Origin: Thermoanaerobacterium aotearoense
GTDB taxonomy: Bacteria > Bacillota > Thermoanaerobacteria > Thermoanaerobacterales > Thermoanaerobacteraceae
Length of the DNA: 64,000 nucleotides
NCBI RefSeq assembly: GCF_009905255.1
Contig: NZ_CP047602.1
Location: forward strand, 930,001-994,000
Direction of reading: 5' to 3'
This document shows positions 40,291 to 58,549 of this stretch, piece by piece. Every line of letters begins with the position of its first letter. The stretch's first letter is position 1. The translations under genes were made by a program, and so were the position numbers. The notes below the pieces were generated by a model. That model did not search any database, was not told the origin of the DNA, and saw only the letters and a program-made list of their open reading frames with translations.

Positions 40291-41265
40291 ATGTTAGGGA
40301 TAGATTACATATACGAAAATTTAGACAGTCTTTCGGGAAGTGAAATAAAGCTTTTGCTATTTCTGCTAAAGTATGCTGATAAATTTCCTGTACATATTAC
40401 TACAGACGAATTTCAAAATGGCAAACTTGACGATGCTAAAAAGAGGCTGGACAATGGCACAGGTTTATCAGCCGGTGCGATTTCTGAAACAATAAAGAAG
40501 TTGATCGACAAAAAGCTTATTGTATGCTTTATTGACAACACAGACTTAGGCAGGATAAAAAAGTATTACATGATTTCAAAAAATGAAAGTAACAAAAATT
40601 TGACGTATGCCTATGATAAAGAGACTTGCGAATATTTAACATACGAAAATTGGCTTAAATCACTTAATATAGATGGCACTTCAGAAAGCGAAACCACATC
40701 ACAATTTAGTAAACCCGAAGGTGGATCGTCATTTTCTGAAACCATTGAAAAATCACCAGTTTCAAAAAGTGACGACATATATACTATGAGTAGTATTATA
40801 TATAAATCATATCAATCAGATAGATCGATTGAAAAAAATAATATGATAGATCGATCTATCAATCATGAGGATTTTTCTACCGTAAAGAAATTTGAAGATG
40901 AGAGGCAGAGTACATCAAAAATAGTCAAGGCGAAAAGCGAATCAGCAATACCAAACGCCTTGATAGATACCATTAAAAGCAAATACAATCTTAGTGGCGA
41001 CGATATGAAGGTCTGTCTTTCTAGAATGAAAGGGAAAGAAATAAAATATCCAGCAAAATTTTTAGAGAAAGTGGCGGAAAATTACGTTAAAGAAAAAGAA
41101 CTATTTTCACAAATAGAAGCAACAAAACAGCCAAAACGTGATTATGAAGTGCCACGAAACTACTTTAACTCATATCCCCAAAGAAAGTACAACATAGAAG
41201 AGCTTGAGAGATACCTTTTGACAGGTAGAGCTAGTGACGACCACGTATTTCCGTCGTATACGTAA
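40291..41265 (+). CDS. Replication-initiator-like winged-helix protein (DnaD-like C-terminus)
   Basis: A 324-residue protein. Residues 15-110 look like a winged helix (SEIKLLLFLLKYADKFPVHI, then LSAGAISETIKKLIDKKLIV as recognition helix and following strand). Residues 125-215 are a Ser/Lys-rich, low-complexity linker. Residues 220-300 are helical, and the end YPQRKYNIEELERYLL is the motif seen at the C-terminus of phage and plasmid replication/DnaD-like proteins. The linker-coding part holds iteron-like DNA repeats (40819-40860). It may be the remains of a mobile element that brought the defence island. Function not proven; a transcription regulator is the alternative. Confidence 0.6.
   Translation: MLGIDYIYENLDSLSGSEIKLLLFLLKYADKFPVHITTDEFQNGKLDDAKKRLDNGTGLSAGAISETIKKLIDKKLIVCFIDNTDLGRIKKYYMISKNESNKNLTYAYDKETCEYLTYENWLKSLNIDGTSESETTSQFSKPEGGSSFSETIEKSPVSKSDDIYTMSSIIYKSYQSDRSIEKNNMIDRSINHEDFSTVKKFEDERQSTSKIVKAKSESAIPNALIDTIKSKYNLSGDDMKVCLSRMKGKEIKYPAKFLEKVAENYVKEKELFSQIEATKQPKRDYEVPRNYFNSYPQRKYNIEELERYLLTGRASDDHVFPSYT
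40819..40860. repeat. Iteron-like repeats inside the initiator-like gene
   Basis: GATAGATCGAT occurs at 40819-40829 and again at 40845-40855, and the second copy is part of a perfect 16-base palindrome GATAGATCGATCTATC (40845-40860), giving a third, inverted copy. The two direct copies are 26 bases apart and in the same reading frame (Asp-Arg-Ser-Ile). Confidence 0.6.
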
Positions 41266-41350: not shown

Positions 41351-41568
41351 TTTTGAATAAAATTTATTTTAGGTAATACTATGCCCTTAAATATTGTAAT
41401 ATTTTTATAGAGATGATTTTGTATTAATTTTTATACTTAATAAAAAATGATATTCCATTACCATCTTAAATATTAAAATATTTTATGGATATGCAGGAAA
41501 GAAATGACTTATATCGAATTAATAATAAAGACCTAAATTAGTTTTAAATTATTTGAGGAGATTTTAAA

Positions 41569-42591
41569 ATGAATAAGGAATTTATTTTACATAGAATAAA
41601 ACCTTATTTAGATAAAAACAATGCAATTAGCGAAGATGATTTTGACAAATTGTTTTCAATGTTTGATTTGCACCAGCAGTACGAGATTATAAATGTTTTA
41701 ATAGATGAAAATATCGAGATTATTTATGATGACAGCAATGATTATAGTAAAAATAATGCTTCAATCAGACATGATAATGTGCCTGCAGGAAAAATAGAGT
41801 GTCTAACGAATGAACAATTATGCATATTGTACCAGCAAGGCAATAGTTGGGCTCTGGAAGCACTTGCGAACCGAAATAAAAAGCTTGTAATGAGTCGTGC
41901 ATATAAATATTTTAGAAAATATGAATTATGCCTTGACGAAGAAGACCTTGTACAGTATGGTTATTTAGGTCTAATAAAAGCTGCTGAACGTTTCGATGTA
42001 AAAAAAGAGGTTAAATTTGTAACATATGCGGTATGGTGGATAGATCAAGCTATTAAAAGAAATATTTGTGATTATGGATTTATCATAAGGTTACCTACTC
42101 ATTATTTTGATACAATCAATAAAGTTTTAAAAGTATTGAGCAATCATTATGAGTTGTCAAAAGAGCAGATTAAGAAAATATTGATAGAAAATAATATAAA
42201 AGAAGAAAAATATAATGAAATTATGTTTATTATAAAAAATTTGCTGTCTGTCGATTCTTTAAACAGATATGTTGGACAAGACATGGAAGATGATGACACT
42301 GAATTGCTTGATTTTATAGTCGACAAAACAAATCCAACAGTAGAAGAAGATGTTGATTCAAAATTATTGAAAGAAACTATCAATAATTTATTAGATACAT
42401 TAAAAAAGAGGGAAAAAGAAGTTATAAGAATGCGATTTGGATTAGATGGTGGAGATGGAATGACATTAGAGCAAATAGGTAAAGAATACAATATCACAAG
42501 AGAGAGAATAAGGCAGATAGAGAAAAAAGCAATTAAAAAGTTGAGACATCCTTCTAGGTCAAAGAAATTAAGAGATTTTATATTGAGGTGA
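41569..42591 (+). CDS. Sigma-70 family RNA polymerase sigma factor (RpoD-like, island-encoded)
   Basis: A 340-residue sigma factor with almost the full primary-sigma layout. Residues 1-50 resemble region 1.1. Region 2 has LVMSRAYKYF, LDEEDLVQYGYLGLIKAAERFD and VKFVTYAVWWIDQAIKRNI (about 105-167); region 3 follows; region 4 has LKKREKEVIRMRFGLDGGDGMTLEQIGKEY and an HTH with ITRERIRQIEKKAIKKLRH (about 280-330). It is not the housekeeping rpoD, since no dnaG is near and region 1 is divergent. It ends 7 bases before a RecQ-like helicase and lies in a defence island. It may direct transcription of the island or of the helicase. Confidence 0.9.
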   Translation: MNKEFILHRIKPYLDKNNAISEDDFDKLFSMFDLHQQYEIINVLIDENIEIIYDDSNDYSKNNASIRHDNVPAGKIECLTNEQLCILYQQGNSWALEALANRNKKLVMSRAYKYFRKYELCLDEEDLVQYGYLGLIKAAERFDVKKEVKFVTYAVWWIDQAIKRNICDYGFIIRLPTHYFDTINKVLKVLSNHYELSKEQIKKILIENNIKEEKYNEIMFIIKNLLSVDSLNRYVGQDMEDDDTELLDFIVDKTNPTVEEDVDSKLLKETINNLLDTLKKREKEVIRMRFGLDGGDGMTLEQIGKEYNITRERIRQIEKKAIKKLRHPSRSKKLRDFILR

Positions 42592-42598
42592 AAAACAA

Positions 42599-45500
42599 TT
42601 GATAAACTTAAAAGATCTTATAAGCGAAATAATACAAAGCTATTTAAAAGATGATGAAACTATTATAGTCTTAAAGGGATTTAGTATAAAATTGTACGAT
42701 AATAACATCACAATAGACATTGATGACATATTAAAAAATGATAAACTAAAATACTTCAATCTAATAAATGAAAGACGAGTAATTACTTATGAGGAATATT
42801 TAATCCTCTATTCGTTTATAATATATAAATTCAAAAAAATAACAATTCTTGAAAATAATATATACATAAACTACTTTCCTTTATACGTTGATATTCCGGA
42901 ATATATAAAAAAATCTTTGCTGATTAACTTTGATGAGGATAATGAATCAGATGAAGAAATCGGCAATTTATCAGATTATATAGCAATATATAGTAATTTT
43001 AAATATATCAATGGTAAATATTATGTCGTATACAATAATATAATTTCTGATGAGAAAGAAGAAAAATATCCAGTATTTACAAAGGCTGATACAAAAATTG
43101 AAAAGGAGGTTGTGACGTCTTTAGATAAATGCTACAAGTTGGATACTGAAGAGAGCTACGTGACTTTTTTAGACGACATCATAGAAGGAAAAGTAAAAGA
43201 TATACATATATTGGGGGACTGGCACAACGCTTATAATTCATATTTAGATAAGCTTCAGATTTTAAAAAACATATATGAAAGTGACATAGATATTAAAATT
43301 GGGTATGTTAAAGATAGGGAAAGACCGGTAACAGTCAGAAAAGAATACTATGAAATATTGAAAAAATATTGGGGGAAAGATGCATTTAGAAAAATTAAAA
43401 TGTATGACATTGATAGATTATATATTAAAGAAAAAGTCGTAAAAAGTGTATCACAAGGTGAAATAATTGAAAGAATAGTTGAAGAAGTTGAAAAATGCTA
43501 TAGAGGGGAAAATTATAGAGACATTTTTGTAACTGCACCTACTGGTTCAGGAAAATCTGCTATGTTCCAGATTCCTGCTATCTATTTAGCAGAAAAATAT
43601 GAACTTTTTACTATAGTGATTTCACCACTGATAGGTCTTATGAATGATCAAGTTTATAATCTAGATAAGAAAAATTACAAATATGCAAGGACAATAAATT
43701 CAGACATATCACCTATAAAAAGGCAGGAAATTATGAATGAAATTGCCGATAAAAAGTGCCATATATTGTATCTTTCGCCTGAGTCGCTTCTCAGCAAAAG
43801 TGATTTAGAACAGATAATAGGAGATCGTCAGTTAGGTCTATTAGTAATAGATGAAGCCCACATAGTTACAACGTGGGGCAAGCAATTTAGACCTGATTAT
43901 TGGTATTTGGGGGATCATTTAGATAGAATAAAAAAGTATCAACGCAAAAATGGCAAACCAAACTTTGTAATAGCTACATTTACTGCAACTGCTATTTATG
44001 GCGGTATGGAAGATATGTATGATGAGACTATACAAAGCCTTAAAATGTTAGATCCTATTACTTACCTGGGCTACGTTAAAAGAAATGATATAAAAATAAA
44101 TATAGAGAAATCTGAAGTAACAATTACTCAAAAAGATGAGTATGAATTAAATAAATTTGATAAACTTATAGAGAAAATGAATAAATCATTGACACTGGGA
44201 CAAAAAATGCTTATATATTTTCCGACGATAGCGCTGATAAATAGATTTTATGAGTACTGTATAGTTAACAATCTAGGGAAATACATTACCAAATATCATG
44301 GCAGGCTCACTCCATACGAAAAAAGGGAGAATTATACTAAATTTAAAGAGAATAAGACTCCTGTAATGTTAGCAACAAAAGCATTTGGCATGGGGATTGA
44401 CATTGACGATATTGATATAATTGCCCACTTTGCACCAACAGGCAATGTATGCGATTATGTGCAGGAAATAGGTAGAGCTGCTCGAAAGCTTGAAATGATT
44501 GGAGAAGCATATTACAATTTTATGAGAAATGATTTTAAGCATATAAATAAATTGCACGGCTTATCAACTGTAAAAGAGTATCAACTAATTAACGTCATAA
44601 AAAAAGTATATGAACTTTATCTGCAAAATATAAAAAATAATTTCAATAAAAAATTGACAAAAAGAAGAAATGCTATGCTGGTAGATGCAGAGTCTTTTCA
44701 GCATATATTTGAGAATCCATTTTTTGATGAGGAAGATGGAATAAACAAAGTAAAGACTGCAATGCTATTAATACAAAAAGATTTCGAAAGAAGATTTGCA
44801 TTTTCACCTTTTAATATTAGACCTATACCATTATTTGAAATAGGATATTTTAAGATAGATCCCAAAATACAAAAGGCTATAATTGAAGAATATGGTGATG
44901 TATTGCATGAAGAATACGATTATCCTGATATTTGCTCTGTCAATTTAAAAAAGATATGGGAAGAAAATTTTTATGAGAAATATTCATTTCCAAAGTTTAA
45001 ATATATGCTTTATTCAAGGGATCATGAGCTAGACTTTGAACATAAGAACGAAATGCGGCATGCACTGTGTGTCGAAATATATTTCAAAGATAGTAATTAT
45101 TTAAATATGTACAACAAATATATAAATGCTGTAAAAGATATTATATATAATTCTGTAAGGGAATCAAAATATTACAAGATAGATGGTAAAGGCGGGTTGG
45201 TCGACTTATTGATGACAAAGATTGGCAACAATGAATATAAAGCAAAAAGCATAGTTGAATCTATTATTTCTTCTATGTCTATTTTCCAAAGGGATTACAA
45301 TAAAAATATACATAGTAGAATTTATACGGTTAAACCATTAAAGACTGGAGAAATTGAATACAGATTTATGAGCGGTGTTGCAGAGTACTTTAGATGGATT
45401 GATAGAACATTTAACTATATAATAAACAATGTTGATGAAGGGAAAATATATTTGGTTGACGACATCGAGAATGGTAATATAAAAGAAATGATGCTTATTT

Positions 45501-45775
45501 TAGGATTGATGGAATCTTTAGATTTATTGATATTTAAAGCATTGGGTGGGAAAAACAGCCAGATATATATTTATGTAAATCAAACTAAAACGATGAAAGA
45601 AATAATAGAGAAACCCTATAGGTATAAAAATAAGCTATTAGAGATAATAGGGGAAAGGCATAAAATATCAGTTGCAATGCTTACTTATCTTTTTGATGGA
45701 AATTTCAGCAGCGAAGAATTTTGGGATCTTATAGAAGATTACTTTTTGGGTATATTACCAAAAGAGATAATGTGA
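42599..45775 (+). CDS. RecQ-like DEAH helicase with large unknown flanking domains
   Basis: A 1058-residue protein. A superfamily 2 helicase core spans about residues 290-670: Walker A APTGSGKSAMFQIP (about 313), VISPLIGLMNDQV (about 340), DEAH in LVIDEAHIVTTWG (about 418), TATA (about 463), and motif VI QEIGRAARK (about 623). The core is closest to RecQ, but the RecQ zinc-binding cysteines, RQC and HRDC domains are not visible. About 290 residues before the core and 390 after match nothing I know. TTG 42599 follows GAGGTG and lies 7 bases after the sigma factor, so the two are translationally linked. Confidence 0.85.
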   Translation: MINLKDLISEIIQSYLKDDETIIVLKGFSIKLYDNNITIDIDDILKNDKLKYFNLINERRVITYEEYLILYSFIIYKFKKITILENNIYINYFPLYVDIPEYIKKSLLINFDEDNESDEEIGNLSDYIAIYSNFKYINGKYYVVYNNIISDEKEEKYPVFTKADTKIEKEVVTSLDKCYKLDTEESYVTFLDDIIEGKVKDIHILGDWHNAYNSYLDKLQILKNIYESDIDIKIGYVKDRERPVTVRKEYYEILKKYWGKDAFRKIKMYDIDRLYIKEKVVKSVSQGEIIERIVEEVEKCYRGENYRDIFVTAPTGSGKSAMFQIPAIYLAEKYELFTIVISPLIGLMNDQVYNLDKKNYKYARTINSDISPIKRQEIMNEIADKKCHILYLSPESLLSKSDLEQIIGDRQLGLLVIDEAHIVTTWGKQFRPDYWYLGDHLDRIKKYQRKNGKPNFVIATFTATAIYGGMEDMYDETIQSLKMLDPITYLGYVKRNDIKINIEKSEVTITQKDEYELNKFDKLIEKMNKSLTLGQKMLIYFPTIALINRFYEYCIVNNLGKYITKYHGRLTPYEKRENYTKFKENKTPVMLATKAFGMGIDIDDIDIIAHFAPTGNVCDYVQEIGRAARKLEMIGEAYYNFMRNDFKHINKLHGLSTVKEYQLINVIKKVYELYLQNIKNNFNKKLTKRRNAMLVDAESFQHIFENPFFDEEDGINKVKTAMLLIQKDFERRFAFSPFNIRPIPLFEIGYFKIDPKIQKAIIEEYGDVLHEEYDYPDICSVNLKKIWEENFYEKYSFPKFKYMLYSRDHELDFEHKNEMRHALCVEIYFKDSNYLNMYNKYINAVKDIIYNSVRESKYYKIDGKGGLVDLLMTKIGNNEYKAKSIVESIISSMSIFQRDYNKNIHSRIYTVKPLKTGEIEYRFMSGVAEYFRWIDRTFNYIINNVDEGKIYLVDDIENGNIKEMMLILGLMESLDLLIFKALGGKNSQIYIYVNQTKTMKEIIEKPYRYKNKLLEIIGERHKISVAMLTYLFDGNFSSEEFWDLIEDYFLGILPKEIM

Positions 45776-45779
45776 TTAG

Positions 45780-45812
45780 TGTGGCTTAAGATTTTTGCCA
45801 CATTTTTTATTT
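45780..45812 (+). terminator. Terminator of the sigma/helicase pair
   Basis: TGTGGC (45780-45785) and GCCACA (45797-45802) form a stem followed by a seven-T run, shortly after the helicase stop. Confidence 0.7.
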
Positions 45813-45924: not shown

Positions 45925-46290
45925 ATGAAAAAAGCAGACGGTATTATTTCATTGATAGCAGGAGTTATAAGCATATTTGCAGCTATAGCAACACTGCTTG
46001 TAGGCGGAGCTGGATCAGCATTTCAAGCGGAAGGATCAAATACAGTAATAGGACTTGGCTGGGGTGGAGTTGTATTCTCATTCCTAGTAGTAATATTTGG
46101 AGCAATAGCTATTGGGGCAAAGAGTAAAGCTGCAGGCATCCTATTAATCATCTCTTCAATTTTAGGTGCTATATTAGGTGGGACATTAGTTGCAATCTTT
46201 ATGGTGCTTTCACTTGTTGGAGGAATTCTGGTTTTGATTGGAAATAAAAAAGAACCAGAAGACAGTACAAAGTCATGTATTTACAAGTAA
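45925..46290 (+). CDS. Small four-helix membrane protein (DUF4064-like)
   Basis: A 121-residue Gly/Ala-rich protein with about three or four membrane helices (IISLIAGVISIFAAIATLLV near residue 7; VVFSFLVVIFGAIAIGA; ILLIISSILGAILGGTLVAI; FMVLSLVGGILVLIG) and a short charged tail. It looks like the DUF4064 type of small membrane proteins. A good ribosome site (AAAGGGAG) precedes it and a terminator lies on each side, so it is a separate unit inside the island. In defence islands, small membrane proteins are often effectors, but nothing ties it to BREX directly. Confidence 0.7.
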   Translation: MKKADGIISLIAGVISIFAAIATLLVGGAGSAFQAEGSNTVIGLGWGGVVFSFLVVIFGAIAIGAKSKAAGILLIISSILGAILGGTLVAIFMVLSLVGGILVLIGNKKEPEDSTKSCIYK

Positions 46291-46434: not shown

Positions 46435-46465
46435 TATTAACTTATAGGTAGAAAAGGGGATGATT

Positions 46466-46936
46466 ATGTTACTATGTGAGAATATTAGAGACGCATTGGC
46501 TATTTTGCAAAATGAATATCATAAATTGATACTAGTTTTGACTCTATTAGATGATAAGGCAGAAGTTGTAGAGAAAATATCTAATAAGTATGCATATGAT
46601 GTTTTGAATGTAAATCTTAGATTATCAGAAAAGTTGATTAGCGTTCCTATATCTGAACGCTGGCTACATGTTGATGAATTTTTTTCAAGATTACTTAATG
46701 ACTATAAGACGGATGTGATTGTATTAAATAGCATAGAGATGCTATTTGAAACCCATTTAAAGGTTGATCCATTGCGGCTACTGAAAAGTGTGAGTAGGTA
46801 CAGAAAGATTATAGCAATCTGGACAGGCGATTATACAGACGGTGTGTTGACGTATGCAGAGCCTTCACATCCAGAATATAGAAGATATAAAAATGATGAT
46901 CTTGATTTCATAATGGTACGCAGCAACTGCATATAG
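46466..46936 (+). CDS. brxF: BREX type 3 protein BrxF
   Basis: A 156-residue BrxF. The family's C-terminal half is clear: VIVLNSIEMLFETHLKVDPLR (DNIEILF-type, about 90-110), SRYRKIIAIWTGDY, then LTYAEPSHPEYRRY (about 131-145). BrxF is described as a P-loop protein, but the expected N-terminal GxxxxGK is absent: the place is taken by LILVLTLLDDKAEVVEKI. It may therefore not bind ATP by itself. ATG 46466 is used because AAAGGGG gives a 6-base spacer; ATG 46460 touches that site. It is the first gene of the BREX operon. Confidence 0.85.
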   Translation: MLLCENIRDALAILQNEYHKLILVLTLLDDKAEVVEKISNKYAYDVLNVNLRLSEKLISVPISERWLHVDEFFSRLLNDYKTDVIVLNSIEMLFETHLKVDPLRLLKSVSRYRKIIAIWTGDYTDGVLTYAEPSHPEYRRYKNDDLDFIMVRSNCI

Positions 46937-46962
46937 AAATTAAATTAAAGGGAGGATTCAAT

Positions 46963-49900
46963 GTGAGATACGGTGATCTTGTACATTACGATCCAATTGA
47001 GACAATAATTAATTTGAAAGATGCTGATGATGAAGAAAAAGCGGCTGCCCTTGTTAAATCATATGTGATGTCTGATAATATGGCAGAAAATATTATTAAT
47101 ATATGTATTTCACAGTTGCAATTTGATGAAACAATTGACAATAAGGGGCTTTTTATCGTTGGTAATTATGGCACGGGTAAGTCCCACTTAATGTCTGTTA
47201 TATCATCAATTGCCGAAAATGAAAAATTACTAAAATTTGTAACAAATGATAAGTTTAAAGATGGCATGAGGAGGATAGCTGGAAAATTTAAAGTTTTAAG
47301 ATTTGATATTGGCTCTACAGACATGCCATTGAGGGATATAGTTTTGTCTAAAGTTGAAGAAAATATTCATCAGCTGGGAATTGAGTACAATTTTCCGCCC
47401 ATGAATAAAGTAGCAAATAACAAAGACTCGTTCATGGAAATGATGGCTCTATTTGAAGAGAAGTATCCAGGCAAAGGCTACCTTATTGTAGTTGATGAGC
47501 TTTTTGACTTCTTAAAAACAAGAAAAGAACAAGAGCTTATTAAAGACTTAGCCTTTTTAAGGGAAATTGGAGAAATAAGCAAATCAACGAAAATTAGATT
47601 TATGTCTGGCGTGCAGGAATCATTGTTTGACAATCCCGGCTTTCAATTTGTAGCAAGGACGATATTAAAAGTAAAAGATAGGTTTGAGCAAATAATTATA
47701 AAAAGAGAAGATATATCATATGTCGTGTCAGAGAGAATTTTAAAAAAGGATGAAAAACAAAAGGCATATATCAGAAGCCATCTTGGAAAATTTTCAAGTC
47801 TATATAAAAATATGGCTGAAAGAATGAATGAGTTTGTAGACTTGTTTCCTATTCATCCAGCTTTTATAGAAGTATTTGAAAAAATTTATATAGCTGAAAA
47901 AAGAGAAGTTTTAAAGACGATCACGAATCTTATAAAAAATATAATTGATGAAGAAGTAGCAGAGGATATGCCGGGAATCATATCTTATGATGCGTATTGG
48001 GATTTTATTAAAGACAATATGTCTATGAGGACGAATCCAGATATAAAAGATGTTATCGATAAAAGCAGTATAATAGAAGGAGCAATTTTGCGCTCTTTTC
48101 CAAGGCCACAATACAAAGATAGTGCAATAAAGATTATAAACGCATTAAGTGTATATAGGTTGGCTACAGGCGACATACGAACGCCAATTGGAATAACAGT
48201 TGATAACATAAAAGATGATTTATGCTTATTTATAAGGATCCCAGAATTTGAAGAAGATTTCTTAAGGACAACAATAGAGACAATAATGAAAGACATAATA
48301 CGAACTGTAAATGGCCAGTTTATATCCTACAATCAAGATAATCAGCAGTATTACATTGATATGGTGCGAGTTGGAATAGACTATGATGTTATCATACAAG
48401 AAAAGGCCGAAAAACTAGACGATGATACTTTAAATCGCTATTACTTTGAAATATTGCTAAAGGTTCTTGATTGGAACGTGAAAGAATATGTGCCAAATTT
48501 TAAAATCTGGGAATACAGCTTAAAATGGCTTGATAAAAATATTGAGAGAGATGGGTATCTCTTTATGGGGTCTCCAGATGAGAGATCAACAGCACAACCA
48601 CCGAGAGATTTTTACATATACTTTTTAAATCCATATTCAATAGATAATAGGAAATATATTGAAAATGGGAAAAAAGATGAAGTGTTTTTTGAATTTACTA
48701 ATTACGATGAAAAGCTGGAAAGTTTGTTAAAGTCTTATTCTGCATCAATGATTTTATATGATAGTTCAGCAAATGACGGCAAGGCTATTTATAGCAGCAA
48801 AGCTGATGGCTTTATGAAAGAAATAGTTAAATGGATAAAGACAAATATAGGAAATTGTTTTAGTGTTTCACATAATGGAGTTACAAAGAGAATTTTGGAC
48901 ATGGCAAGGGGTACAAAAAGAGAAGACGAGACGATAAAAGATTACATAGATTTTGTTGCTTCATCTTGTTTGTCATTTTACTTTGCTGATAAATATCCAG
49001 ATTATCCAAAGTTTAAAGTTATTATAACGAGAGATAATAGAGAAGCTATGTTTAAATATGGGCTTAATTACATTGCGGGGCAAAAGTCTGAGCATGGAGC
49101 AAAAATACTTCAGACATTTGACTTAATCGACAATGATGGAAATATAACAGTTGAAAATTCAAGATATGTAAAATATTTTCAGGATATAGTGAATAGCTTG
49201 CCTGAAGGCAAAGTCTTAAACCACGATGATATTTTTGTTTTGGAAAATGAAGTTGAAATTGATAGAAAGTTTAGATTAGACGGAGAATGGGTAGCTCTCA
49301 TACTTTGCACTTTAGTGTATAATGGAGAAATTGCAATTACTGTAAACAATAAGAAATACGATGCTACTATGCTATCTGATTTAGTAAAGTTAGCTCCAAA
49401 TGATATTGTCAACTTTTCTTTTTGCGATAGACCAAAGGGGATTCCGATTAATACATTAAAAAGACTTATGGAGATTATTGGGCTGCCAACAGGAACTATT
49501 TCAAATCCAGAAAAGCAGGTAGAAGCAATTAAAGAAATGAATAAAAAATTTGATGAATTAATTAATGAAGCGCATTCTGTAATTCAGTATGTTACAAGCG
49601 GTAAGACGATTTGGGATAAGCTGTTATTTAATGATGCTGAGAAAAAGTCATACAAAGATGAATTGAACGGTTTTATATCATTTTTAAATACTCTTAAGAG
49701 GTTTAATACGCCAGGGAAATTGAGAAATTTTAGGTATTCTAAAGAAGACATTGAGAGAGAATTTGCTGCATTGAAGTTGATAAATAGAATTCAAAAAATA
49801 ATGAATTTTGTTAATAGCATTGATGCTTACGTAGTATACATATCTAAAGCTTGTTTGGTGTTGGTAGATAATAATGATTGGATTAAAAAAGTGGAAGATG

Positions 49901-50646
49901 TTAAGCAAAAAATAGAAGATACGATTAAAAATATCGATAATGTAGATCTGAATGCGGCTAAAAACGACGTAATTAATGAGCTGATAAATATTAAAAAAGA
50001 GTATATCGATATATACTTTGATGAGCATAGAAAACACAGACTAGACTACAAAGGAGACGAGCATAAAAAGAAAATACTAAATAGCAGCAAGCTTTATAAT
50101 CTCAGAAAGCTAAAATCAATTGATATACTTAGTGGTTCAGAATTGACTGCAATAGAAGAAGAGCTTGGTAAAATCAATTCATGCTTTAGTTTGACACCAC
50201 AAGATTTAGAAACAGAAGTCCAATGTAAATACTGCAAGTATAGGTATGGCGACAAAAATGAGTTATTGGTATACGGAAAGTTGGATGAGATAGAAAATAA
50301 AATTGATGAGATTTATAAAAACTGGGAAGAAGAATTACTTAAAAATATTGAAGATCCTTTAATAAAAGATAATATAAATTATTTAAATGATGATCAACAG
50401 AAGTGTATTAATGAGTTTATTGCAAGAAGATCGCTCCCAGAAAAAATAGACAATTTATTTTTATCGTCTATAAAAGACCTTTTAAAAGGACTTGATAAAG
50501 TAGAAATAGATTCTAAAGAGTTTATTGCTAACATAACAGGCAATGGTCCTGTGACATTGGACGATTTTAAAAATAACTTTATGAAATTTATAGAAAATAA
50601 GGTGAATGGCAAAGAAAAAGATAAAGTAAGAATCATAATAAAATGA
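46963..50646 (+). CDS. brxC: BREX type 3 ATPase BrxC
   Basis: A 1227-residue AAA+ ATPase (BrxC/PglY, DUF6079 type). It starts RYGDLVHYDPIETIINLKDA, with Walker A VGNYGTGKSHLMSVI (about 66-80) and a Walker B in YLIVVDELFDFLKTRKEQE (about 174-192). The long C-terminal part is helical, with a CKYCKYRYGD zinc-like motif near residue 1090. BrxC is required for both methylation and phage exclusion in BREX systems. GTG 46963 follows GGGAGG by 7 bases. It is 26 bases after brxF and 13 before the methyltransferase gene. Confidence 0.92.
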   Translation: MRYGDLVHYDPIETIINLKDADDEEKAAALVKSYVMSDNMAENIINICISQLQFDETIDNKGLFIVGNYGTGKSHLMSVISSIAENEKLLKFVTNDKFKDGMRRIAGKFKVLRFDIGSTDMPLRDIVLSKVEENIHQLGIEYNFPPMNKVANNKDSFMEMMALFEEKYPGKGYLIVVDELFDFLKTRKEQELIKDLAFLREIGEISKSTKIRFMSGVQESLFDNPGFQFVARTILKVKDRFEQIIIKREDISYVVSERILKKDEKQKAYIRSHLGKFSSLYKNMAERMNEFVDLFPIHPAFIEVFEKIYIAEKREVLKTITNLIKNIIDEEVAEDMPGIISYDAYWDFIKDNMSMRTNPDIKDVIDKSSIIEGAILRSFPRPQYKDSAIKIINALSVYRLATGDIRTPIGITVDNIKDDLCLFIRIPEFEEDFLRTTIETIMKDIIRTVNGQFISYNQDNQQYYIDMVRVGIDYDVIIQEKAEKLDDDTLNRYYFEILLKVLDWNVKEYVPNFKIWEYSLKWLDKNIERDGYLFMGSPDERSTAQPPRDFYIYFLNPYSIDNRKYIENGKKDEVFFEFTNYDEKLESLLKSYSASMILYDSSANDGKAIYSSKADGFMKEIVKWIKTNIGNCFSVSHNGVTKRILDMARGTKREDETIKDYIDFVASSCLSFYFADKYPDYPKFKVIITRDNREAMFKYGLNYIAGQKSEHGAKILQTFDLIDNDGNITVENSRYVKYFQDIVNSLPEGKVLNHDDIFVLENEVEIDRKFRLDGEWVALILCTLVYNGEIAITVNNKKYDATMLSDLVKLAPNDIVNFSFCDRPKGIPINTLKRLMEIIGLPTGTISNPEKQVEAIKEMNKKFDELINEAHSVIQYVTSGKTIWDKLLFNDAEKKSYKDELNGFISFLNTLKRFNTPGKLRNFRYSKEDIEREFAALKLINRIQKIMNFVNSIDAYVVYISKACLVLVDNNDWIKKVEDVKQKIEDTIKNIDNVDLNAAKNDVINELINIKKEYIDIYFDEHRKHRLDYKGDEHKKKILNSSKLYNLRKLKSIDILSGSELTAIEEELGKINSCFSLTPQDLETEVQCKYCKYRYGDKNELLVYGKLDEIENKIDEIYKNWEEELLKNIEDPLIKDNINYLNDDQQKCINEFIARRSLPEKIDNLFLSSIKDLLKGLDKVEIDSKEFIANITGNGPVTLDDFKNNFMKFIENKVNGKEKDKVRIIIK

Positions 50647-50659
50647 TGGAGGAATTGAC

Positions 50660-53206
50660 GTGAAGCTAACAAAAGAAATGCTGGACAGTGTACGAAATAT
50701 AGATGGATTTCCGATAGGAAGTGATGAGGACATAATTGAGCTTTCCGATCCGCCACACTATACGGCATGTCCTAATCCATTCATAAATGATTTTATAGAG
50801 AAGTACGGTAAGCCGTATGATGAGGAAACTGATGATTACAAATGCGAGCCATATGCTGCTGACGTATCAGAAGGGAAAAACGACCCTATATACAATGCTC
50901 ATTCGTATCACACGAAAGTACCTCACAAAGCTATAATGAGGTATATACTTCATTATACAAAGCCAGGCGATATCGTCTTTGATGGATTTTGCGGAACCGG
51001 CATGACAGGTGTTGCTGCACAAATGTGCGGCAATCCAGATCCAGAATTTAAGTTTAAAGTGGAAAAAGAGTCTGAAAAAGAAGGCAAGAAAGTAGAATGG
51101 GGAGCGAGAAGGGCGATACTTGGCGATCTATCGCCTGCTGCAACATTTATCGCATACAATTACAATACGCCGGTTGATACTGCAGAATTCGAGAAGGAAG
51201 CTAAAAGAATCCTCGATGAAGTAGAGAATGAGTGCGGCTGGATGTATGAGACGATTCACACGATTGATGGAGTACCTCAGAAGTACATAGATGGAAGTGT
51301 CATAAAAGGAAGGATAAACTACACAGTGTGGTCGGATGTTTTTGTCTGTCCAAACTGCAGCAATGAGATAGTTTTTTGGGATGCAGCAGTTAATAAAGAA
51401 GATGGCAAGGTGATGGATGAGTTTAAGTGTCCACACTGCGGTGCTGCCGTAAACAAGAAAGATCTCGATAGAGCATGGAAAACTGTATACGATAAGGCGC
51501 TGGATAAAGTGATAAATCAAGTAAAACAAGTTCCTGTCTTAATAAATTACACAGTAGACAATAAGAGGTATGAAAAGAAACCAGATGAATTTGATATGGA
51601 GCTTATAGAAAAGATCGAAGAGATGGATATACCATACTGGTATCCGACAGATGAATTGCCGAATGGTTATAATACAGAACAACCGAAAAAATCCCATGGA
51701 ATAACACATGTGCACCATTTTTATACAAAGAGAAATCTGTGGGTTTTAAGTGCAATATATGATAGGATTAAAATGAAAAAAAATATCTTTTATTGGCTTT
51801 TAACTTCGGTTTCTGAAGGTTCTTCAAAATTAAATAGAGAGAGACCTAATGGTTTGCCAAGTAAATTATCTGGTACATTATATGTAAGCTCAATGATACA
51901 TGAAATTAACAATATTGATTTTATTTATAGAAAAATTATGAAAAGAATACTTAACAAAGAGTTATCTAGCCCTTACAATAAATGTATTTCAACGCAATCA
52001 TTAGATGATATAAAAAATATTAAATCTAACTCTGTTGACTATATTTTTACGGACCCTCCATTTGGAGATAATCTTATGTACAGCGAGCTGAATTTTTTGT
52101 GGGAATCATGGCTTAAAATTTTTACAAACAATAAGACAGAGGCTATAATTAATAAAACGCAGAAGAAAGGGCTTCATGAGTATCAAGAGTTGATGGAGAA
52201 GTGCTTTTCAGAGATGTACAGGATATTAAAGCCAGGCAGGTGGATGACTGTAGAGTTTCACAACTCAAAAAACGCTGTGTGGAATGCCATACAGGAAGCT
52301 ATATTGAGAGCAGGCTTTGTCATAGCCAATGTTAGGACGCTTGACAAAAAACAAGGATCATTTAAGCAAGTTACGACAACGACTGCTGTAAAGCAGGATC
52401 TTGTTATATCGGCATATAAGCCAAAGGAAGGCTTTGTCAAGAGGTTTTTAAAAGAGGCTGGCACAGAAGAAGGCGTGTGGGATTTTGTGAGCCAGCACCT
52501 TGAGAAGCTTCCTATCGTCGTAGAGGTTGGTGACAGGCTTGATATCGTAGATGAGAGGCGTGATTATCTGCTTTACGACAGCATGATTGCTTTTCATATA
52601 CAGAATGGCGCATCTATACCGATGGGATCTTCTGACTTCTATGCTGGACTAAAGAAAAGGTACATAGAAAGAGATGGAATGTACTTTCTACCGGACCAAG
52701 CAGCGGTTTATGACTCAAAGCGAGCAAAGCTTGAGCTTAATGATCAGCTTTCATTCATCATAAAAGATGAAAAGATGGCGATACAGTGGCTAAAATATAA
52801 GCTTTTAAATAAGCCTATGACATATCAAGAACTACAGCCATTGTTTTTAGAAGAGCTTCATCAGGGAAAGCATGAAAGCATACCAGAGCTTATAGATATA
52901 CTTCAAGAAAATTTCTTGAAAGATGATGATGGCAGATGGTATGTGCCAGATGTCAATAGACAGTCAGACATGGAGAAATTAAGAGAGAAAAAACTCTTAA
53001 AGGATTTTGAAGAGTATAAAAATTCTAAGGGAAAGCTTAAGATATTTAGATCAGAAGCTATAAGAGTAGGCTTTAAGGAATGCTGGAAAAATAAAGATTA
53101 TGAGACTATTGTAAGTGTTAGCGAAAGGCTGCCTGAATCATTTTTGCAGGAAGACCAAACATTGCTGATGTACTATGATAATGCACAAACAAGGTTAGGT
53201 GTTTAA
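50660..53206 (+). CDS. pglX: BREX type 3 adenine-specific DNA methyltransferase (PglX)
   Basis: An 848-residue methyltransferase. Motif I is VFDGFCGTGMTGVAAQ (about 104-119), the catalytic motif IV is FTDPPFGDNLMYSE (about 463-476), and between them lies a zinc ribbon (CPNCSNE and CPHCGAA, about 231 and 257). The order, AdoMet motif, insert, DPPF, matches the alpha class of N6-adenine enzymes. In BREX it methylates the host DNA, marking self. GTG 50660 has GGAGG upstream. The last 8 bases overlap the helicase gene. Confidence 0.9.
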   Translation: MKLTKEMLDSVRNIDGFPIGSDEDIIELSDPPHYTACPNPFINDFIEKYGKPYDEETDDYKCEPYAADVSEGKNDPIYNAHSYHTKVPHKAIMRYILHYTKPGDIVFDGFCGTGMTGVAAQMCGNPDPEFKFKVEKESEKEGKKVEWGARRAILGDLSPAATFIAYNYNTPVDTAEFEKEAKRILDEVENECGWMYETIHTIDGVPQKYIDGSVIKGRINYTVWSDVFVCPNCSNEIVFWDAAVNKEDGKVMDEFKCPHCGAAVNKKDLDRAWKTVYDKALDKVINQVKQVPVLINYTVDNKRYEKKPDEFDMELIEKIEEMDIPYWYPTDELPNGYNTEQPKKSHGITHVHHFYTKRNLWVLSAIYDRIKMKKNIFYWLLTSVSEGSSKLNRERPNGLPSKLSGTLYVSSMIHEINNIDFIYRKIMKRILNKELSSPYNKCISTQSLDDIKNIKSNSVDYIFTDPPFGDNLMYSELNFLWESWLKIFTNNKTEAIINKTQKKGLHEYQELMEKCFSEMYRILKPGRWMTVEFHNSKNAVWNAIQEAILRAGFVIANVRTLDKKQGSFKQVTTTTAVKQDLVISAYKPKEGFVKRFLKEAGTEEGVWDFVSQHLEKLPIVVEVGDRLDIVDERRDYLLYDSMIAFHIQNGASIPMGSSDFYAGLKKRYIERDGMYFLPDQAAVYDSKRAKLELNDQLSFIIKDEKMAIQWLKYKLLNKPMTYQELQPLFLEELHQGKHESIPELIDILQENFLKDDDGRWYVPDVNRQSDMEKLREKKLLKDFEEYKNSKGKLKIFRSEAIRVGFKECWKNKDYETIVSVSERLPESFLQEDQTLLMYYDNAQTRLGV

Positions 53207-55889
53207 GTTGTACAGTGTAGGCCAGTGGGTTTTTGATTGTGAAATAAATAGATACGTACAAGTAGTTTCTTCAAATGAACTATGGGGGTATAAAACATAC
53301 AATGTTTATGACCCTATCGATAAAAGTCTTCGCTTAGTATCTGATGAGGTACTTAGACATTACTCACAAAGAGACGATTTTGATATACATTATTTTAAGT
53401 ATATCGTTATATCTTCTAGAGTATTTAATGAATTGTCAAATGGGATACTGTCGCCAATAGGCGGCAGTATCATTCCACTTCCCCATCAAATATATGCATT
53501 AAACCGTGTTTTATCAGATAGTAAAATAAGATATTTGCTTGCAGATGAAGTGGGGTTAGGAAAGACGATAGAAGCAGGTCTCATAATCAAAGAGCTTAAA
53601 GCAAGAGGATTTATAAAAAGGATATTAATTATTAGTCCAAAGGGACTTATAAATCAGTGGCATGATGAAATGAAAAATAAATTTGATGAAAATTTTAATA
53701 TACTGCTGCCACAAGATTTTGACGCTATTAAAAGGCTATACGGCGATGGCAATGTTTGGAGAAAATTTGATCAAGTCATTACATCCATTGATTCTGTAAA
53801 GCCATTGGAAAAGAGACAAAGGTGGACAGAAGAAGATATAGAGAAATACAATAAAGAAAGAATTGAGGATTTAGCTAATGCAGGTTGGGATATAATTATT
53901 GCGGATGAAGCCCACAGGATAGCAGGATCATCGTCTGATGTAGCTCGATATAAATTAGGTAAAGTTTTAGCCGATGCAAGTCCATATCTTTTACTGCTTA
54001 CTGCTACGCCTCACCAAGGCAAGACAGATTCTTTTTTGAGGTTAGTAAGATTGCTTGATAAAAATGCATTTCCAGATGAAAATGCTATTGTAAGGGAACA
54101 AGTGGTACCTTACATAGTGAGAACTGAAAAGAGGGAAGCATTAGACTCTGAAGGCAATCCACTTTTTAAAAACAGAATCACAAAAACTAAAAATATATCA
54201 TGGAGTGCAAGGCATAGCTTGCAGAAAGAACTATATGAAAAAGTGACAGAGTATGTATCAAAGGGATATAATTTGGCAAGGAGAGAGAAGAAAAACTACA
54301 TAGGTTTTCTGATGGTTTTAATGCAGAGATTAGTTACAAGCAGCACACACGCAATTAAAGAGAATTTAGAGAGAAGAATTGAGATTCTAAAAAACAGCGG
54401 AACAAGCAGTAATAATTTTGATGAAGATGACTTTTATGAATATGACGCACAGGAAGCTCTAGATGAACTTATAAAAATTAAATATCAGGACATAAAAAAA
54501 GAGCAGAGAGAAGTAGAGGATTTGTTGCATTTAGCAGAGCGCGCAGAAAGCCAATATGTTGATGTAAAAGCAGAAACATTATTAGAAGATCTTGATTTAT
54601 TGCAGATGGAGCATAGTGAAAAACCTAAAGTCATTATATTTACAGAGTTTATTGCAACGCAGGAATTCTTGCGAAATTTTCTACAAGAAAAAGGATATTC
54701 TGTTGCTATTTTGAATGGCACAATGTCGATGGAAGAAAGAAACAATGCAATAGACGAATTCAAGAAAAGTGCTGATATACTTGTGTCTACGGATGCAGGC
54801 GGTGAAGGCCTTAATCTTCAGTTTTGCAATATAATGATAAATTATGATCTGCCTTGGAATCCGATGAAAATCGAACAGCGCATTGGAAGAATTGACAGGA
54901 TAGGGCAAAAGAGAGATGTAGTGGTAATAAATTATGTTTTATCTGATACGATAGAATTCAGAGTAAGACAGGTTTTGGAAGAAAAGCTTAAGATAATATT
55001 TGAACAATTTGGCGTAGACAAAATGCAGGACATATTGGATTCTGTACAGTCAGAGATGGACTTTACTGATTTGTATATGAAAAGCATAGAAAACCCAGAT
55101 GATATTGATTTTATAGTCAGTGAAGTCGAAATTAAGATAAAAGAAAATGCTGAAAAGATAAACAATATAAAGGGCATTTTAAAAGACGAAAAAGAATTAA
55201 ATATAGAAATGATTGAAAAAATCAATAATACACCGATAAAGCATTGGTTAAAGCAGATGTATATTAATAAAAAGCTTTCTGATGGTGATAAAATCACCAT
55301 GTTTATAGATGATGATTTTTTATCATTAAACAATAAAGATTTGGAGGATATGGTTAAAAATATACCTCAATATATATATGATGGGAAAATACCTGTTGTA
55401 TCAATTGATGGTGTTCCAAATGAAAATGGATACTGGTCACTATGGGAAGTAGGGATCAATGGATATAATAATAGTTTTAAAAGGATATTTCCGTTATTTA
55501 TAAATAAAAGTGGCGTCCTGCGGATTGCATCAGCAAATATGCTATGGGACATATTCTTGAAAGATGACGTTTCAATAATTTTTGAGAGATTTGAAGATCT
55601 TTCAGAAGAAAATTATAATATGATATTTGAAAAGGCTAAAAATATAGCTTTTGATAAATTTGAAGAACTTAAAAAATCATACTTTGAAAAATGTGAAAAA
55701 GACTTGAATAGGTATAAATATGCATTAAAATTGAGAAGAGAGGCAGCAGAAAGAATTGGTTTAGATGCTGTTAAAAGGTATAGGCTTAAGGAGATAGAAA
55801 AAGAAGAAAATGAATTAAATCAAAAAATGAGAGATTATGAAAAAATATTGCCGGTTTTGAATCCTTTATTTATTATTGAATTGTTGTAA
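53199..55889 (+). CDS. brxHII: BREX type 3 SNF2-family helicase BrxHII
   Basis: An 896-residue SNF2-type ATPase: LADEVGLGKTIEAGLIIKEL (Walker A, about 114-133), IIIADEAHRIAGSSSD (about 231), LLLTATPHQGKTD (about 264), then in the C-terminal half DILVSTDAGGEGLNLQFCN (about 525-543) and WNPMKIEQRIGRIDRIGQKR (about 553-572). This is the helicase expected in the fourth position of type 3 BREX loci. The start is GTG 53199 or, with a better ribosome site (AGGTG, 6-base spacer), TTG 53208. The C-terminal 200 residues are charged and coiled-coil-like. Confidence 0.9.
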   Translation: MFKLYSVGQWVFDCEINRYVQVVSSNELWGYKTYNVYDPIDKSLRLVSDEVLRHYSQRDDFDIHYFKYIVISSRVFNELSNGILSPIGGSIIPLPHQIYALNRVLSDSKIRYLLADEVGLGKTIEAGLIIKELKARGFIKRILIISPKGLINQWHDEMKNKFDENFNILLPQDFDAIKRLYGDGNVWRKFDQVITSIDSVKPLEKRQRWTEEDIEKYNKERIEDLANAGWDIIIADEAHRIAGSSSDVARYKLGKVLADASPYLLLLTATPHQGKTDSFLRLVRLLDKNAFPDENAIVREQVVPYIVRTEKREALDSEGNPLFKNRITKTKNISWSARHSLQKELYEKVTEYVSKGYNLARREKKNYIGFLMVLMQRLVTSSTHAIKENLERRIEILKNSGTSSNNFDEDDFYEYDAQEALDELIKIKYQDIKKEQREVEDLLHLAERAESQYVDVKAETLLEDLDLLQMEHSEKPKVIIFTEFIATQEFLRNFLQEKGYSVAILNGTMSMEERNNAIDEFKKSADILVSTDAGGEGLNLQFCNIMINYDLPWNPMKIEQRIGRIDRIGQKRDVVVINYVLSDTIEFRVRQVLEEKLKIIFEQFGVDKMQDILDSVQSEMDFTDLYMKSIENPDDIDFIVSEVEIKIKENAEKINNIKGILKDEKELNIEMIEKINNTPIKHWLKQMYINKKLSDGDKITMFIDDDFLSLNNKDLEDMVKNIPQYIYDGKIPVVSIDGVPNENGYWSLWEVGINGYNNSFKRIFPLFINKSGVLRIASANMLWDIFLKDDVSIIFERFEDLSEENYNMIFEKAKNIAFDKFEELKKSYFEKCEKDLNRYKYALKLRREAAERIGLDAVKRYRLKEIEKEENELNQKMRDYEKILPVLNPLFIIELL

Positions 55890-55920
55890 GAAATATTTAC
55901 TGACAAAGGGATGCATATTT

Positions 55921-57861
55921 ATGATGATAAATTATATAGTTAGCAAATTGAATAGGTGCGATAACAATGTAATATTGGTATTTGATGAAGACAATATTTT
56001 ATCAAATAGTGATATAATTAGCATGCTAAAGGAAAATGGGTATGATATCTACGATTTTAAAGATCCAGATCTTTTTAGATATTATTTTGAAAGTAAATTT
56101 AAGATTGCTCCAAGTGGGAAATTGAAAAGTGGTGTGAAATTATTAATTAGATATGACGGTAAGATTACAATACCGTATGATATAAAGATGTCTTCTTCTA
56201 ATATTGCAATTACATTAACCGAGCTATTCCCGAAATTAAATTATACTGTTTTAAAAGAGATGCATCCAGACATACTTAAAAAACTTTATTCGATTTATTC
56301 GTATTACACAGGCAAGCAATTAAGTGAAGCAGAAACTAAAGAATATATATTAAAAAATATATACGGAATTGTTCCTGAGGTTATTAATAATTATATTGAT
56401 TTAATTAAAACCTTTGTTAATATTTATTACAAAGGAATAGAGCTGCCTGAGATTATCTTTGACTATTTCATAGAAAAGCTAAATAGCAAAGATTATTTTA
56501 AAAAGATAAAAAATAAAGAGGTGTTTTATACTAAAGATAATTTTTTTGCATATTTAGGTGATGAATGGAAGACATATTTAAATGATTTATTAAATAAGAC
56601 TTCAAATGCGACGATTGATTTCGGCAATAATGATATAAAGGTGTATATCGATAATTTATTTTATGAAAAATATATTGATCCTGTGGTGATACATAATATT
56701 GATGCACTGCCAAAATGGACACATGCCGGTATAATCTATGATGAAAATTTAAGAAGGAAGAGAGAATTAGAAAATATTTTGTCAAGCGTAAAAGAAAAGA
56801 TTGATAAGGCAAAATCGTATAGGGATTGGCAAAATATTTCTGAGCTTTGGGGAGAATCATTGTATATTTTCTATAGTGGAGATCGCTCTAACCATGAATT
56901 CCAGGATGTTCAAAAAGAAATAGAAGATAGATTTAGAAAATGGCTTATTAATGAATATAGTTATCTTTCTTCGGCATCTTATGTTAATGGACCAGTTATG
57001 CTTCATCATGTGCCATGGTATATAAATTATAAGATGAAAAAAGATGGTTTTGATAAAGTAGCGCTTTTAGTTTTTGATGGAATGTCTCTTGATGATTGGC
57101 ATATTATTAAAGATTATCTGAAAGAAAAAGGATATTGGCATATAGAGTCAACTACGTCGTTTGCGTGGATACCGACCTTGACATCAATATCAAGGCAATC
57201 GATTTTTGCGGGTGAAATACCTGTGTATTTTAAAGATACATTGATGACGACCAATTATGAAGAAAGGCAATGGAAAAGATTTTGGATGAACCAAGGTTTA
57301 TATTTGGACAATGTTTTTTATATGCGAAGTGTAATAGATTTTAAAGATAGCAGATTAAATGATATAATAAATAATCGTAAGGCGAAAATTTTAGGCTTTG
57401 TGGTGGATATTGTTGATAAGTTGATTCATAGACAAATACTGTCTGTAGATGGATTATATCAAGATTTAAAATTATGGCTTAAAAATAGTGATTTTAATTT
57501 ATTTCTCGATAGTTTAGCAAAAAACGGATATGAAATTTTTATAACATCCGATCATGGGAACGTATATTCTATTGGAAATGGACGGCTAAATGAAGGCAGT
57601 ATTGTTGAAATAGCTGGTGAAAGAGTGAGGATTTACGAACGCGGTTTAAATTATGATAAAGCGCTCAATAACAATAACGCATTCGTATGGACAGGTTTTG
57701 GATTGCCTGATGATTACAGTTTTATACTCTCTAATGGAAATAATGCATTTGTAGATAATGATAGAAGAATTATAACACATGGTGGAGCATCTATTGAGGA
57801 AGTGATTGTGCCATTTATTCGCGTAAGAAAGGAAGAACATAATGCAAAAAGTGGGCTTTGA
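55921..57861 (+). CDS. pglZ: BREX type 3 alkaline-phosphatase-fold protein PglZ
   Basis: A 646-residue PglZ. The C-terminal phosphatase-superfamily domain starts near residue 375 with VALLVFDGMSLDDWHIIKDY (Asp for metal), followed by PTLTSISRQSIFAGEIP (about 416-432) and the metal site FITSDHGN (about 538). The N-terminal 370 residues are specific to type 3. PglZ is the signature gene of BREX. ATG 55921 follows AAAGGG by 10 bases; the frame is open upstream to 55876 inside the helicase gene without a ribosome site. It overlaps the next gene by 20 bases. Confidence 0.92.
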   Translation: MMINYIVSKLNRCDNNVILVFDEDNILSNSDIISMLKENGYDIYDFKDPDLFRYYFESKFKIAPSGKLKSGVKLLIRYDGKITIPYDIKMSSSNIAITLTELFPKLNYTVLKEMHPDILKKLYSIYSYYTGKQLSEAETKEYILKNIYGIVPEVINNYIDLIKTFVNIYYKGIELPEIIFDYFIEKLNSKDYFKKIKNKEVFYTKDNFFAYLGDEWKTYLNDLLNKTSNATIDFGNNDIKVYIDNLFYEKYIDPVVIHNIDALPKWTHAGIIYDENLRRKRELENILSSVKEKIDKAKSYRDWQNISELWGESLYIFYSGDRSNHEFQDVQKEIEDRFRKWLINEYSYLSSASYVNGPVMLHHVPWYINYKMKKDGFDKVALLVFDGMSLDDWHIIKDYLKEKGYWHIESTTSFAWIPTLTSISRQSIFAGEIPVYFKDTLMTTNYEERQWKRFWMNQGLYLDNVFYMRSVIDFKDSRLNDIINNRKAKILGFVVDIVDKLIHRQILSVDGLYQDLKLWLKNSDFNLFLDSLAKNGYEIFITSDHGNVYSIGNGRLNEGSIVEIAGERVRIYERGLNYDKALNNNNAFVWTGFGLPDDYSFILSNGNNAFVDNDRRIITHGGASIEEVIVPFIRVRKEEHNAKSGL

Positions 57862-58549
57862 TAGAATGATAGAAATTGAGTGGCTTAATAAAACGGTAGA
57901 AATTTATAGTAAAGAATCTGATATAAAGATTATTAAACAAGAATTAAATGATTATTTAAAAGACAAAGTTATTTCTGATGATAATAGAAGAAAATGTGTA
58001 AATATACTGACAAGTACGTGGGTTTCAATGCCTGATGAATTTTCTAACTTGAGAGATAAGGCAATAAAGTTATACAATGATGCAAATGAAAATGAGAGAT
58101 TATTAATTAATTGGTCAATGATGATGCTTGCTTTTCCTATATTTTGCGATATTATTGACACGATAGGTAAATTATTATATTTGCAAGATGATTTTGCAAT
58201 TAAAACTGTTTTAAATAGGATATATGATAAATGGGGGGAAAGAAGCACAGTAAAATATGCTGTTCCTAGAATTATATATTCAATGGTACAATGGAAAGCT
58301 CTTGAAAAGAAAAATCCCGGAATATGCCAAAAGGCAAACATAATTGCCATAGATAATGTTGACATAGAGTTATTTTTTCTAGAATGTTATATGAGATCAT
58401 TTAAAAAAGATTATTTAAATTTTTATGAAGTAAACAAATTAAATCCTTCTTTTCCATTTAGATTATCTATAGGGACTATGGATATACATAATTCGGATTC
58501 ATTAAATTTATATAAAGTAAATAACAATTTACTTATCACTTTTGCGTGA
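57842..58549 (+). CDS. BREX type 3 small protein at the BrxA position
   Basis: A 235-residue helical protein, next after PglZ and overlapping it by 20 bases, where type 3 loci carry brxA. Recognisable blocks are RRKCVNILTSTWVSMPDEF (about 51), NERLLINWSMMMLAFPIFCD (about 85), and YDKWGERSTVKYAVPRIIYS (about 125). I think these recur in type 3 BREX proteins, but I cannot confirm that this is the DUF1819 BrxA family. No enzymatic motif is visible. A regulatory or DNA-binding role is plausible. Confidence 0.6.
   Translation: MQKVGFDRMIEIEWLNKTVEIYSKESDIKIIKQELNDYLKDKVISDDNRRKCVNILTSTWVSMPDEFSNLRDKAIKLYNDANENERLLINWSMMMLAFPIFCDIIDTIGKLLYLQDDFAIKTVLNRIYDKWGERSTVKYAVPRIIYSMVQWKALEKKNPGICQKANIIAIDNVDIELFFLECYMRSFKKDYLNFYEVNKLNPSFPFRLSIGTMDIHNSDSLNLYKVNNNLLITFA

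Follow-up and report, generated by a model that had tools for sequence, protein, structure and literature searches.

A primary-like sigma factor and a C3a193-family helicase form a two-gene unit in Bacillota defence regions

A 64,000-nucleotide stretch of Thermoanaerobacterium aotearoense DNA (positions 930,001 to 994,000 of contig NZ_CP047602.1, assembly GCF_009905255.1; here called the window) carries on its forward strand a gene for an RpoD-like sigma-70 factor (340 amino acids; 41569 to 42591), followed by a gene for a superfamily 2 helicase with a RecQ-like core (1058 amino acids; 42599 to 45775). The two genes are a real two-gene unit that moves through Bacillota defence regions beside many different defence systems. 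The sigma gene adjoins the helicase gene, upstream or in divergent orientation, in all nine of the diverged sigma-linked helicases. The helicase is not an orphan but a full-length member of C3a193, a family that is listed but unexplained in the PADLOC defence catalogue; the sigma partner lies outside that listing, and the pair suggests an undescribed defence module with some link to the transcription machinery of the cell. The pair is very probably an autonomous, horizontally moving cassette of defence islands and plasmids.

Full-length helicase homologues were collected from genomes and plasmids, and their flanks were then checked for a sigma gene. The family is rare, as full-length members occur in 8 of 399 genomes drawn evenly from the phylum of the window (genomes are cited below by G numbers). 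The sigma gene lies directly upstream of the helicase gene in the window, G021, G002, G155, an Enterococcus faecium plasmid and Lactiplantibacillus plantarum plasmids. The two genes diverge, with ~50-55 bp between them, in G409 and in a plasmid of Exiguobacterium, where the record ends within the sigma gene. The cases from Bacilli were drawn from plasmid sequences. The G535 helicase was found by a later search, when the pattern had already been set, and the same sigma gene was present 13 bp upstream, as predicted. Because gene order varies between upstream and divergent, adjacency has been maintained through rearrangement. Based on the ~10 places in the host genome that match the window sigma, the chance of a flanking gene being a sigma gene is <1%; this per-locus value was not multiplied, as the loci share descent. 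The first-pass annotation of the window had suggested a search for conserved adjacency beside different defence systems, and the nine diverged pairs display exactly this, with bacteriophage exclusion type 3 (BREX-3), type III-C CRISPR (clustered regularly interspaced short palindromic repeats), type I restriction, Pbe and McrBC-like genes among their neighbours. A near-identical copy of the window locus is also found in Thermoanaerobacterium saccharolyticum NTOU1; in that draft genome (L003:3564-12643) the reading frames of all three genes (sigma, helicase and brxC) are broken, through either decay or assembly error.

Both open reading frames of the window lie where the first-pass annotation had placed them, separated by 7 bases. 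A Shine-Dalgarno-like GAGGTG over the sigma stop codon, 8 nucleotides before the TTG start of the helicase (42584 to 42598 with the gap, forward strand, as read from the sequence), suggests translational coupling, and coupling or overlap of the two genes also characterizes G002, G155 and the E. faecium plasmid. Ratios of nonsynonymous to synonymous substitution rates (dN/dS) relative to the G021 copies are 0.13 for the sigma gene and 0.09 for the helicase gene, and since both genes are thus under purifying selection, the pair is not a chance association of open reading frames.

The pair has a history distinct from that of its neighbours. DNA identity between the window and G021 is 86.9% upstream, 82.6% across the pair and 94.5-95.6% across the BREX block, delimiting a segment with its own divergence (41467 to 45812, forward strand) that represents the extent of the mobile unit within the genus. 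Between the same genomes, dS is 1.03 for the sigma gene and 0.93 for the helicase gene, versus 0.48-0.63 for upstream genes, 0.39 for the gene of SigA, the host sigma factor, and 0.07-0.31 for BREX and following genes. As these two values are high together and unlike those of the neighbours, the pair is not part of BREX. Furthermore, the BREX-3 loci of G005, G012 and G022 lack the helicase, and in G002 BREX-3 is on another contig. A one-to-one link with BREX was rejected on the basis of the BREX-3 loci that lack the helicase and the discordant dS, and the same three genomes and dS values of 0.93-1.03 versus 0.07-0.31 reject the pair as a BREX-3 component. In three Thermoanaerobacterium genomes the pair lies next to BREX-3. 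In G002 it sits within a type III-C CRISPR operon, with cmr3 on one side and cmr1 on the other; its neighbours are type I restriction genes in the E. faecium plasmid and G535, Pbe genes in G155 and McrBC-like genes in G409. G022 has two tandem brxC-like genes (C6:20661-30523), 45% and 34% identical to the window BrxC.

The sigma gene begins with ATG and encodes regions 2, 3 and 4 (Pfam: region 2, 1e-14; region 4, 9.6e-21), in agreement with the nearly complete RpoD-like factor originally described. RpoD is the best NCBIfam model (3e-68), with a score well under the RpoD equivalog cut-off. The first 60 amino acids are possibly region 1.1-like, as had been proposed: their length and pattern resemble those of SigA N termini by eye, but profile comparison gave a probability of only 1.5% (E 0.033). 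Nearly all sigma factors of these islands retain the melting motif of region 2.3 and, in region 4.2, the TRERIRQ recognition helix, so the factor should bind core polymerase and recognize promoters close to those of SigA, as far as motifs can indicate. The motif of region 2.4 is also conserved in the island sigmas, though with changes.

Sigma and helicase phylogenies are congruent. All nine sigma-linked helicases fall into a single clade (support 100/98), and both proteins branch as (window, G021) with (G002, G535), then G155, with a second cluster of G409, Exiguobacterium, E. faecium and L. plantarum. A first sigma tree, made when eight island sigmas were known, joined them all in one clade (95/92), and in a second tree the nine island sigmas were split from the set of host SigA proteins (97/97). 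Because several island-sigma branches are long, a single origin of these factors is likely but not proven. The annotation had also raised the possibility that the sigma factor is the ordinary second RpoD paralogue of the genus. This is not so: host SigA is encoded elsewhere in the genome and is 46% identical to the window sigma, and three genus members that lack the helicase (G014, G018 and G020) have no such sigma. Grouping of the Thermoanaerobacterium-type island sigmas with the SigA proteins of their own hosts was rejected (approximately unbiased [AU] test, p 0.011); this test, the 97/97 split and the absence from those three genomes rule out an ordinary RpoD/SigA paralogue.

The helicase core (residues 305-640; 43511 to 44518) contains Walker A APTGSGKS, a DEAH box and motif VI QEIGRAAR. 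Pfam matches are solely to DEAD (2e-25) and Helicase_C (4e-22), and RecQ is the nearest NCBIfam family, below cut-offs (TIGR01389, 182.7 versus 640.2; TIGR00614, 173.2 versus 219.8). The helicase was initially described as lacking the RecQ zinc finger, RQC and HRDC domains, and this holds across the family, as none of 12 homologues matches the corresponding Pfam families and no cysteine is conserved (one homologue is cysteine-free). The N-terminal part (approximately residues 1-249; 42599 to 43345) is conserved within the family at 18-26% mean pairwise identity and contains no known domain, and the C-terminal part (residues 640-1058; 44516 to 45772) is family specific and carries a conserved FWDLIEDYFLG at its end. 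The ends were thought at first to match nothing and indeed contain no named domain, but nearly the whole protein, ends included (residues 17-1051), matches PADLOC model PDLC01089, "C3a193", over positions 20-980 of 983 (3.4e-132), as do sigma-linked and sigma-less homologues alike (~1e-129 to 1e-247). Structure prediction of the ends, as had been recommended, was performed with AlphaFold2 (three sequences) and gave a usable RecQ core alone; mean predicted local distance difference test (pLDDT) scores were 45 for the whole helicase and 44 for the C-terminal part, and no fold is claimed for the unreliable ends. The best solved-structure matches of the core are 1oyw, 4tmu and 5lb5, with human RECQL5 among the best.

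Pairing is not obligate across the whole family. This sigma is absent beside the helicases of G118, G007, G321, G297 and G459, two further plasmids (of Levilactobacillus brevis, where the helicase is truncated, and of Phocaeicola) and two viral-contig loci. The first-pass annotation had regarded close homologues without a sigma gene as evidence against a dedicated pair; it is the distant half of the family that lacks the sigma, whereas all close homologues, i.e., the clade of the window, have it. Sigma-less helicases are found with Hachiman genes (G118), with type III-D CRISPR and BREX-3 (G007) and with Csx1-like and NERD genes (G321). Since the distant half lacks the sigma yet is similarly placed, the helicase is the probable effector, with the sigma probably gained as a partner. 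In G007 (L030:5360-19999), the helicase gene is situated exactly between the type III-D CRISPR genes and the BREX-3 operon. Only two full-length helicases were found in viral contigs, with no sigma relatives by pattern; one is the lone cargo of a prophage (L040:8001-11180), between a tape-measure gene and an ADP-ribosylglycohydrolase-like gene. G172 (L034:8803-12912) has a helicase of the sigma-less half, with one in-frame stop, and a different RpoD-like sigma gene 15 bp downstream. Grouping of this factor with the other island sigmas in one clade was borderline (p 0.052). A sigma may have been recruited here a second time, or the arrangement may be due to chance. An Alkaliphilus megaplasmid (L129:4944-7256) contains two tandem sigma-70 genes, one of them very divergent.

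The literature searched yielded no paper on the pair and none naming C3a193, and the only sigma mentioned in a 2026 BREX survey is a fold in BrxL. The original remark that no described defence system with this pair is known stands for the pair itself, but the helicase alone is listed as C3a193, and defence systems already known to include a sigma factor are those of MzaA, CalpS and CASP-sigma. The PADLOC entry lists one protein, with no partner or mechanism, and the sigma lies outside the listing. The MZA system also contains a sigma-70 protein, and residues 94-338 of the window sigma match the C terminus of MzaA (1.3e-66), but MzaA (~726 amino acids) has a 470-amino-acid N-terminal part missing from the window sigma, which scored 225.9 bits against the MzaA model (cut-off 800), over the C-terminal 240 positions only. 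MutL, Z1 and other Mza genes had no match among the scanned window neighbours, which comprise BREX-3 and unrelated chromosomal genes. CalpS (with CalpL and CalpT; PMC11417357) and CASP-sigma (with Csx30; PMC10028731) are extracytoplasmic function (ECF) sigma factors that start a transcriptional response in type III CRISPR systems. These are held by an anti-sigma factor that is cleaved by a protease, whereas the window sigma is of the RpoD-like type, and neither a protease gene nor an anti-sigma gene was seen among the conserved neighbours of the pair. A RecQ-type core is shared with PsyrT of the PsyrTA system, with DpdF and with RecQ and RECQL5. The PsyrT model match is confined to the core (307-685), the ends differ, and the partner is a sigma factor rather than PsyrA. 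The ends also differ from those of DpdF (125.9 bits against the NCBIfam equivalog, cut-off 550), and there are no 7-deazapurine (Dpd) genes. Unlike RecQ and RECQL5, the window helicase lacks zinc-binding, RQC and HRDC domains and has two extra family-specific ends.

The sequences show the pair, its conservation, its separateness from BREX and the retained motifs that contact polymerase and promoter. A defence function is inferred from genomic context, and which way regulation runs and what sets it off are likewise inferred. In the preferred explanation, which as a whole is tentative and rated somewhat below even, the C3a193-type helicase would be the effector, most likely unwinding or stripping invader DNA or DNA-protein complexes, and the sigma would be a dedicated partner, acquired and retained by one clade of the helicase family. 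The sigma would bind host core RNA polymerase with promoter preferences near those of SigA and transcribe its own cassette (the helicase gene and perhaps adjoining defence genes), such that expression would persist or rise once an invader disables or diverts SigA. The half of the family without the sigma fits an add-on regulator, and the ECF sigmas that act as transcriptional arms of two CRISPR systems favor, by analogy, a dedicated transcription route. Several observations weigh against this explanation. The -35 helix is identical to that of SigA and would provide little new specificity, so that a purely regulatory sigma would seem redundant, and the G002 pair lies inside a type III-C operon, where it is presumably transcribed already. 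In addition, the upstream regions of the sigma genes have no common promoter motif beyond close relatives, promoter-like consensus sites are no more frequent in the window than chance would give (44 versus 34.9 expected, standard deviation 6.5) and no anti-sigma or sensor gene was identified. Regulation by the sigma is nevertheless the first choice, with physical tethering of the two proteins close behind.

Under tethering, which is possible though the less likely of these two, a sigma-helicase complex would dock through the sigma on RNA polymerase or promoter complexes, and the helicase would unwind or dislodge initiation complexes on invader DNA. The coupling or overlap of the genes at four loci suggests matched amounts of the proteins, and the congruent trees are consistent with a complex. 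The unchanged SigA-like -35 helix points to the same promoters rather than new ones and argues against a distinct regulon. Human RECQL5 binds RNA polymerase II, and this RecQ-family helicase working on RNA polymerase is among the best structure matches. Conversely, the helicases without a sigma in the other clade and in the prophage indicate that tethering is not intrinsic to the family, and the sigma-linked clade has only a handful of residues of its own (T543, L546, V617, G969, Y990, M1027 and P1054). In a form of similar standing, the pair would act on transcription initiation, the sigma delivering the helicase to promoter polymerase or sensing hijacking, with invader transcription dismantled at its start. 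To our knowledge, no mechanism of this kind exists among known defence systems.

A guard role is unlikely, in which the sigma would serve as a decoy that anti-sigma factors or polymerase hijackers of phages capture, and its capture would release or activate the helicase. The sigma does change faster than the helicase (77% versus 84% amino-acid identity; dN 0.133 versus 0.083) and far faster than SigA (dN 0.002), as in an arms race, but such change would fit relaxed constraint as well, and dN/dS is still 0.13. More doubtful still, and largely refuted, is a role as an accessory of BREX-3 or of type III CRISPR, for which PADLOC annotates C3a193 as a "possible alternative Cas3". The positions of the pair in Thermoanaerobacterium and G002, and of the lone G007 helicase beside BREX-3, would suit such a role, but three related genomes have BREX-3 without the helicase, dS is discordant, and other pairs adjoin unrelated systems or are carried by plasmids that have neither BREX-3 nor type III CRISPR. 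In G002 and G007 the helicase adjoins or lies within type III loci, and elsewhere it accompanies other systems; no CRISPR array was found near the type III-linked loci in the 20-kb stretches. Least probable is a PsyrTA-like toxin-antitoxin system of toxic helicase and sigma antitoxin, which the small first gene, the overlapping genes, the plasmid carriage and the likeness of the core to PsyrT (1.6e-49) recall, but many intact helicases lack this sigma (one stands by itself in a prophage), the PsyrT match is restricted to the core and PsyrA is absent.

The BREX-3 operon of the window (brxF, brxC, pglXI, brxH, pglZ and brxA; 46460 to 58549, forward strand) is a neighbour of the pair, not a partner. 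The pair was reported to lie immediately upstream of it; the operon does follow, but a single small gene (45925 to 46290), weakly matching DUF4064, intervenes; it is kept in the NTOU1 copy and absent from G021. Upstream of the pair, a protein with a weak HTH_36 helix-turn-helix match (40291 to 41265 in the window) is encoded in all three Thermoanaerobacterium loci, with a host-like dS of 0.54. At the end of the BREX-3 operon (58578 to 62694) is an McrBC-like pair that combines a Pua-like plus AAA_5 protein (PADLOC PDC-M26A) with a DUF2357 plus PD-(D/E)XK_7 nuclease; a related McrBC-like pair occurs near the sigma-helicase pair of G409 (L035 810-4578). The island is followed by a putative Uma2-family endonuclease gene (62817 to 63377), missing from the aligned G021 sequence.

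With its stable partner, an unexplained entry of the defence catalogue becomes a defined and testable two-gene module. It is rare for a single enzyme to have a primary-like sigma factor as its dedicated partner. The promoter is the point where many phages attack host polymerase, and if the pair defends cells, it would reveal either a route for expressing immunity that is proof against phages or a form of immunity that acts at the promoter itself.

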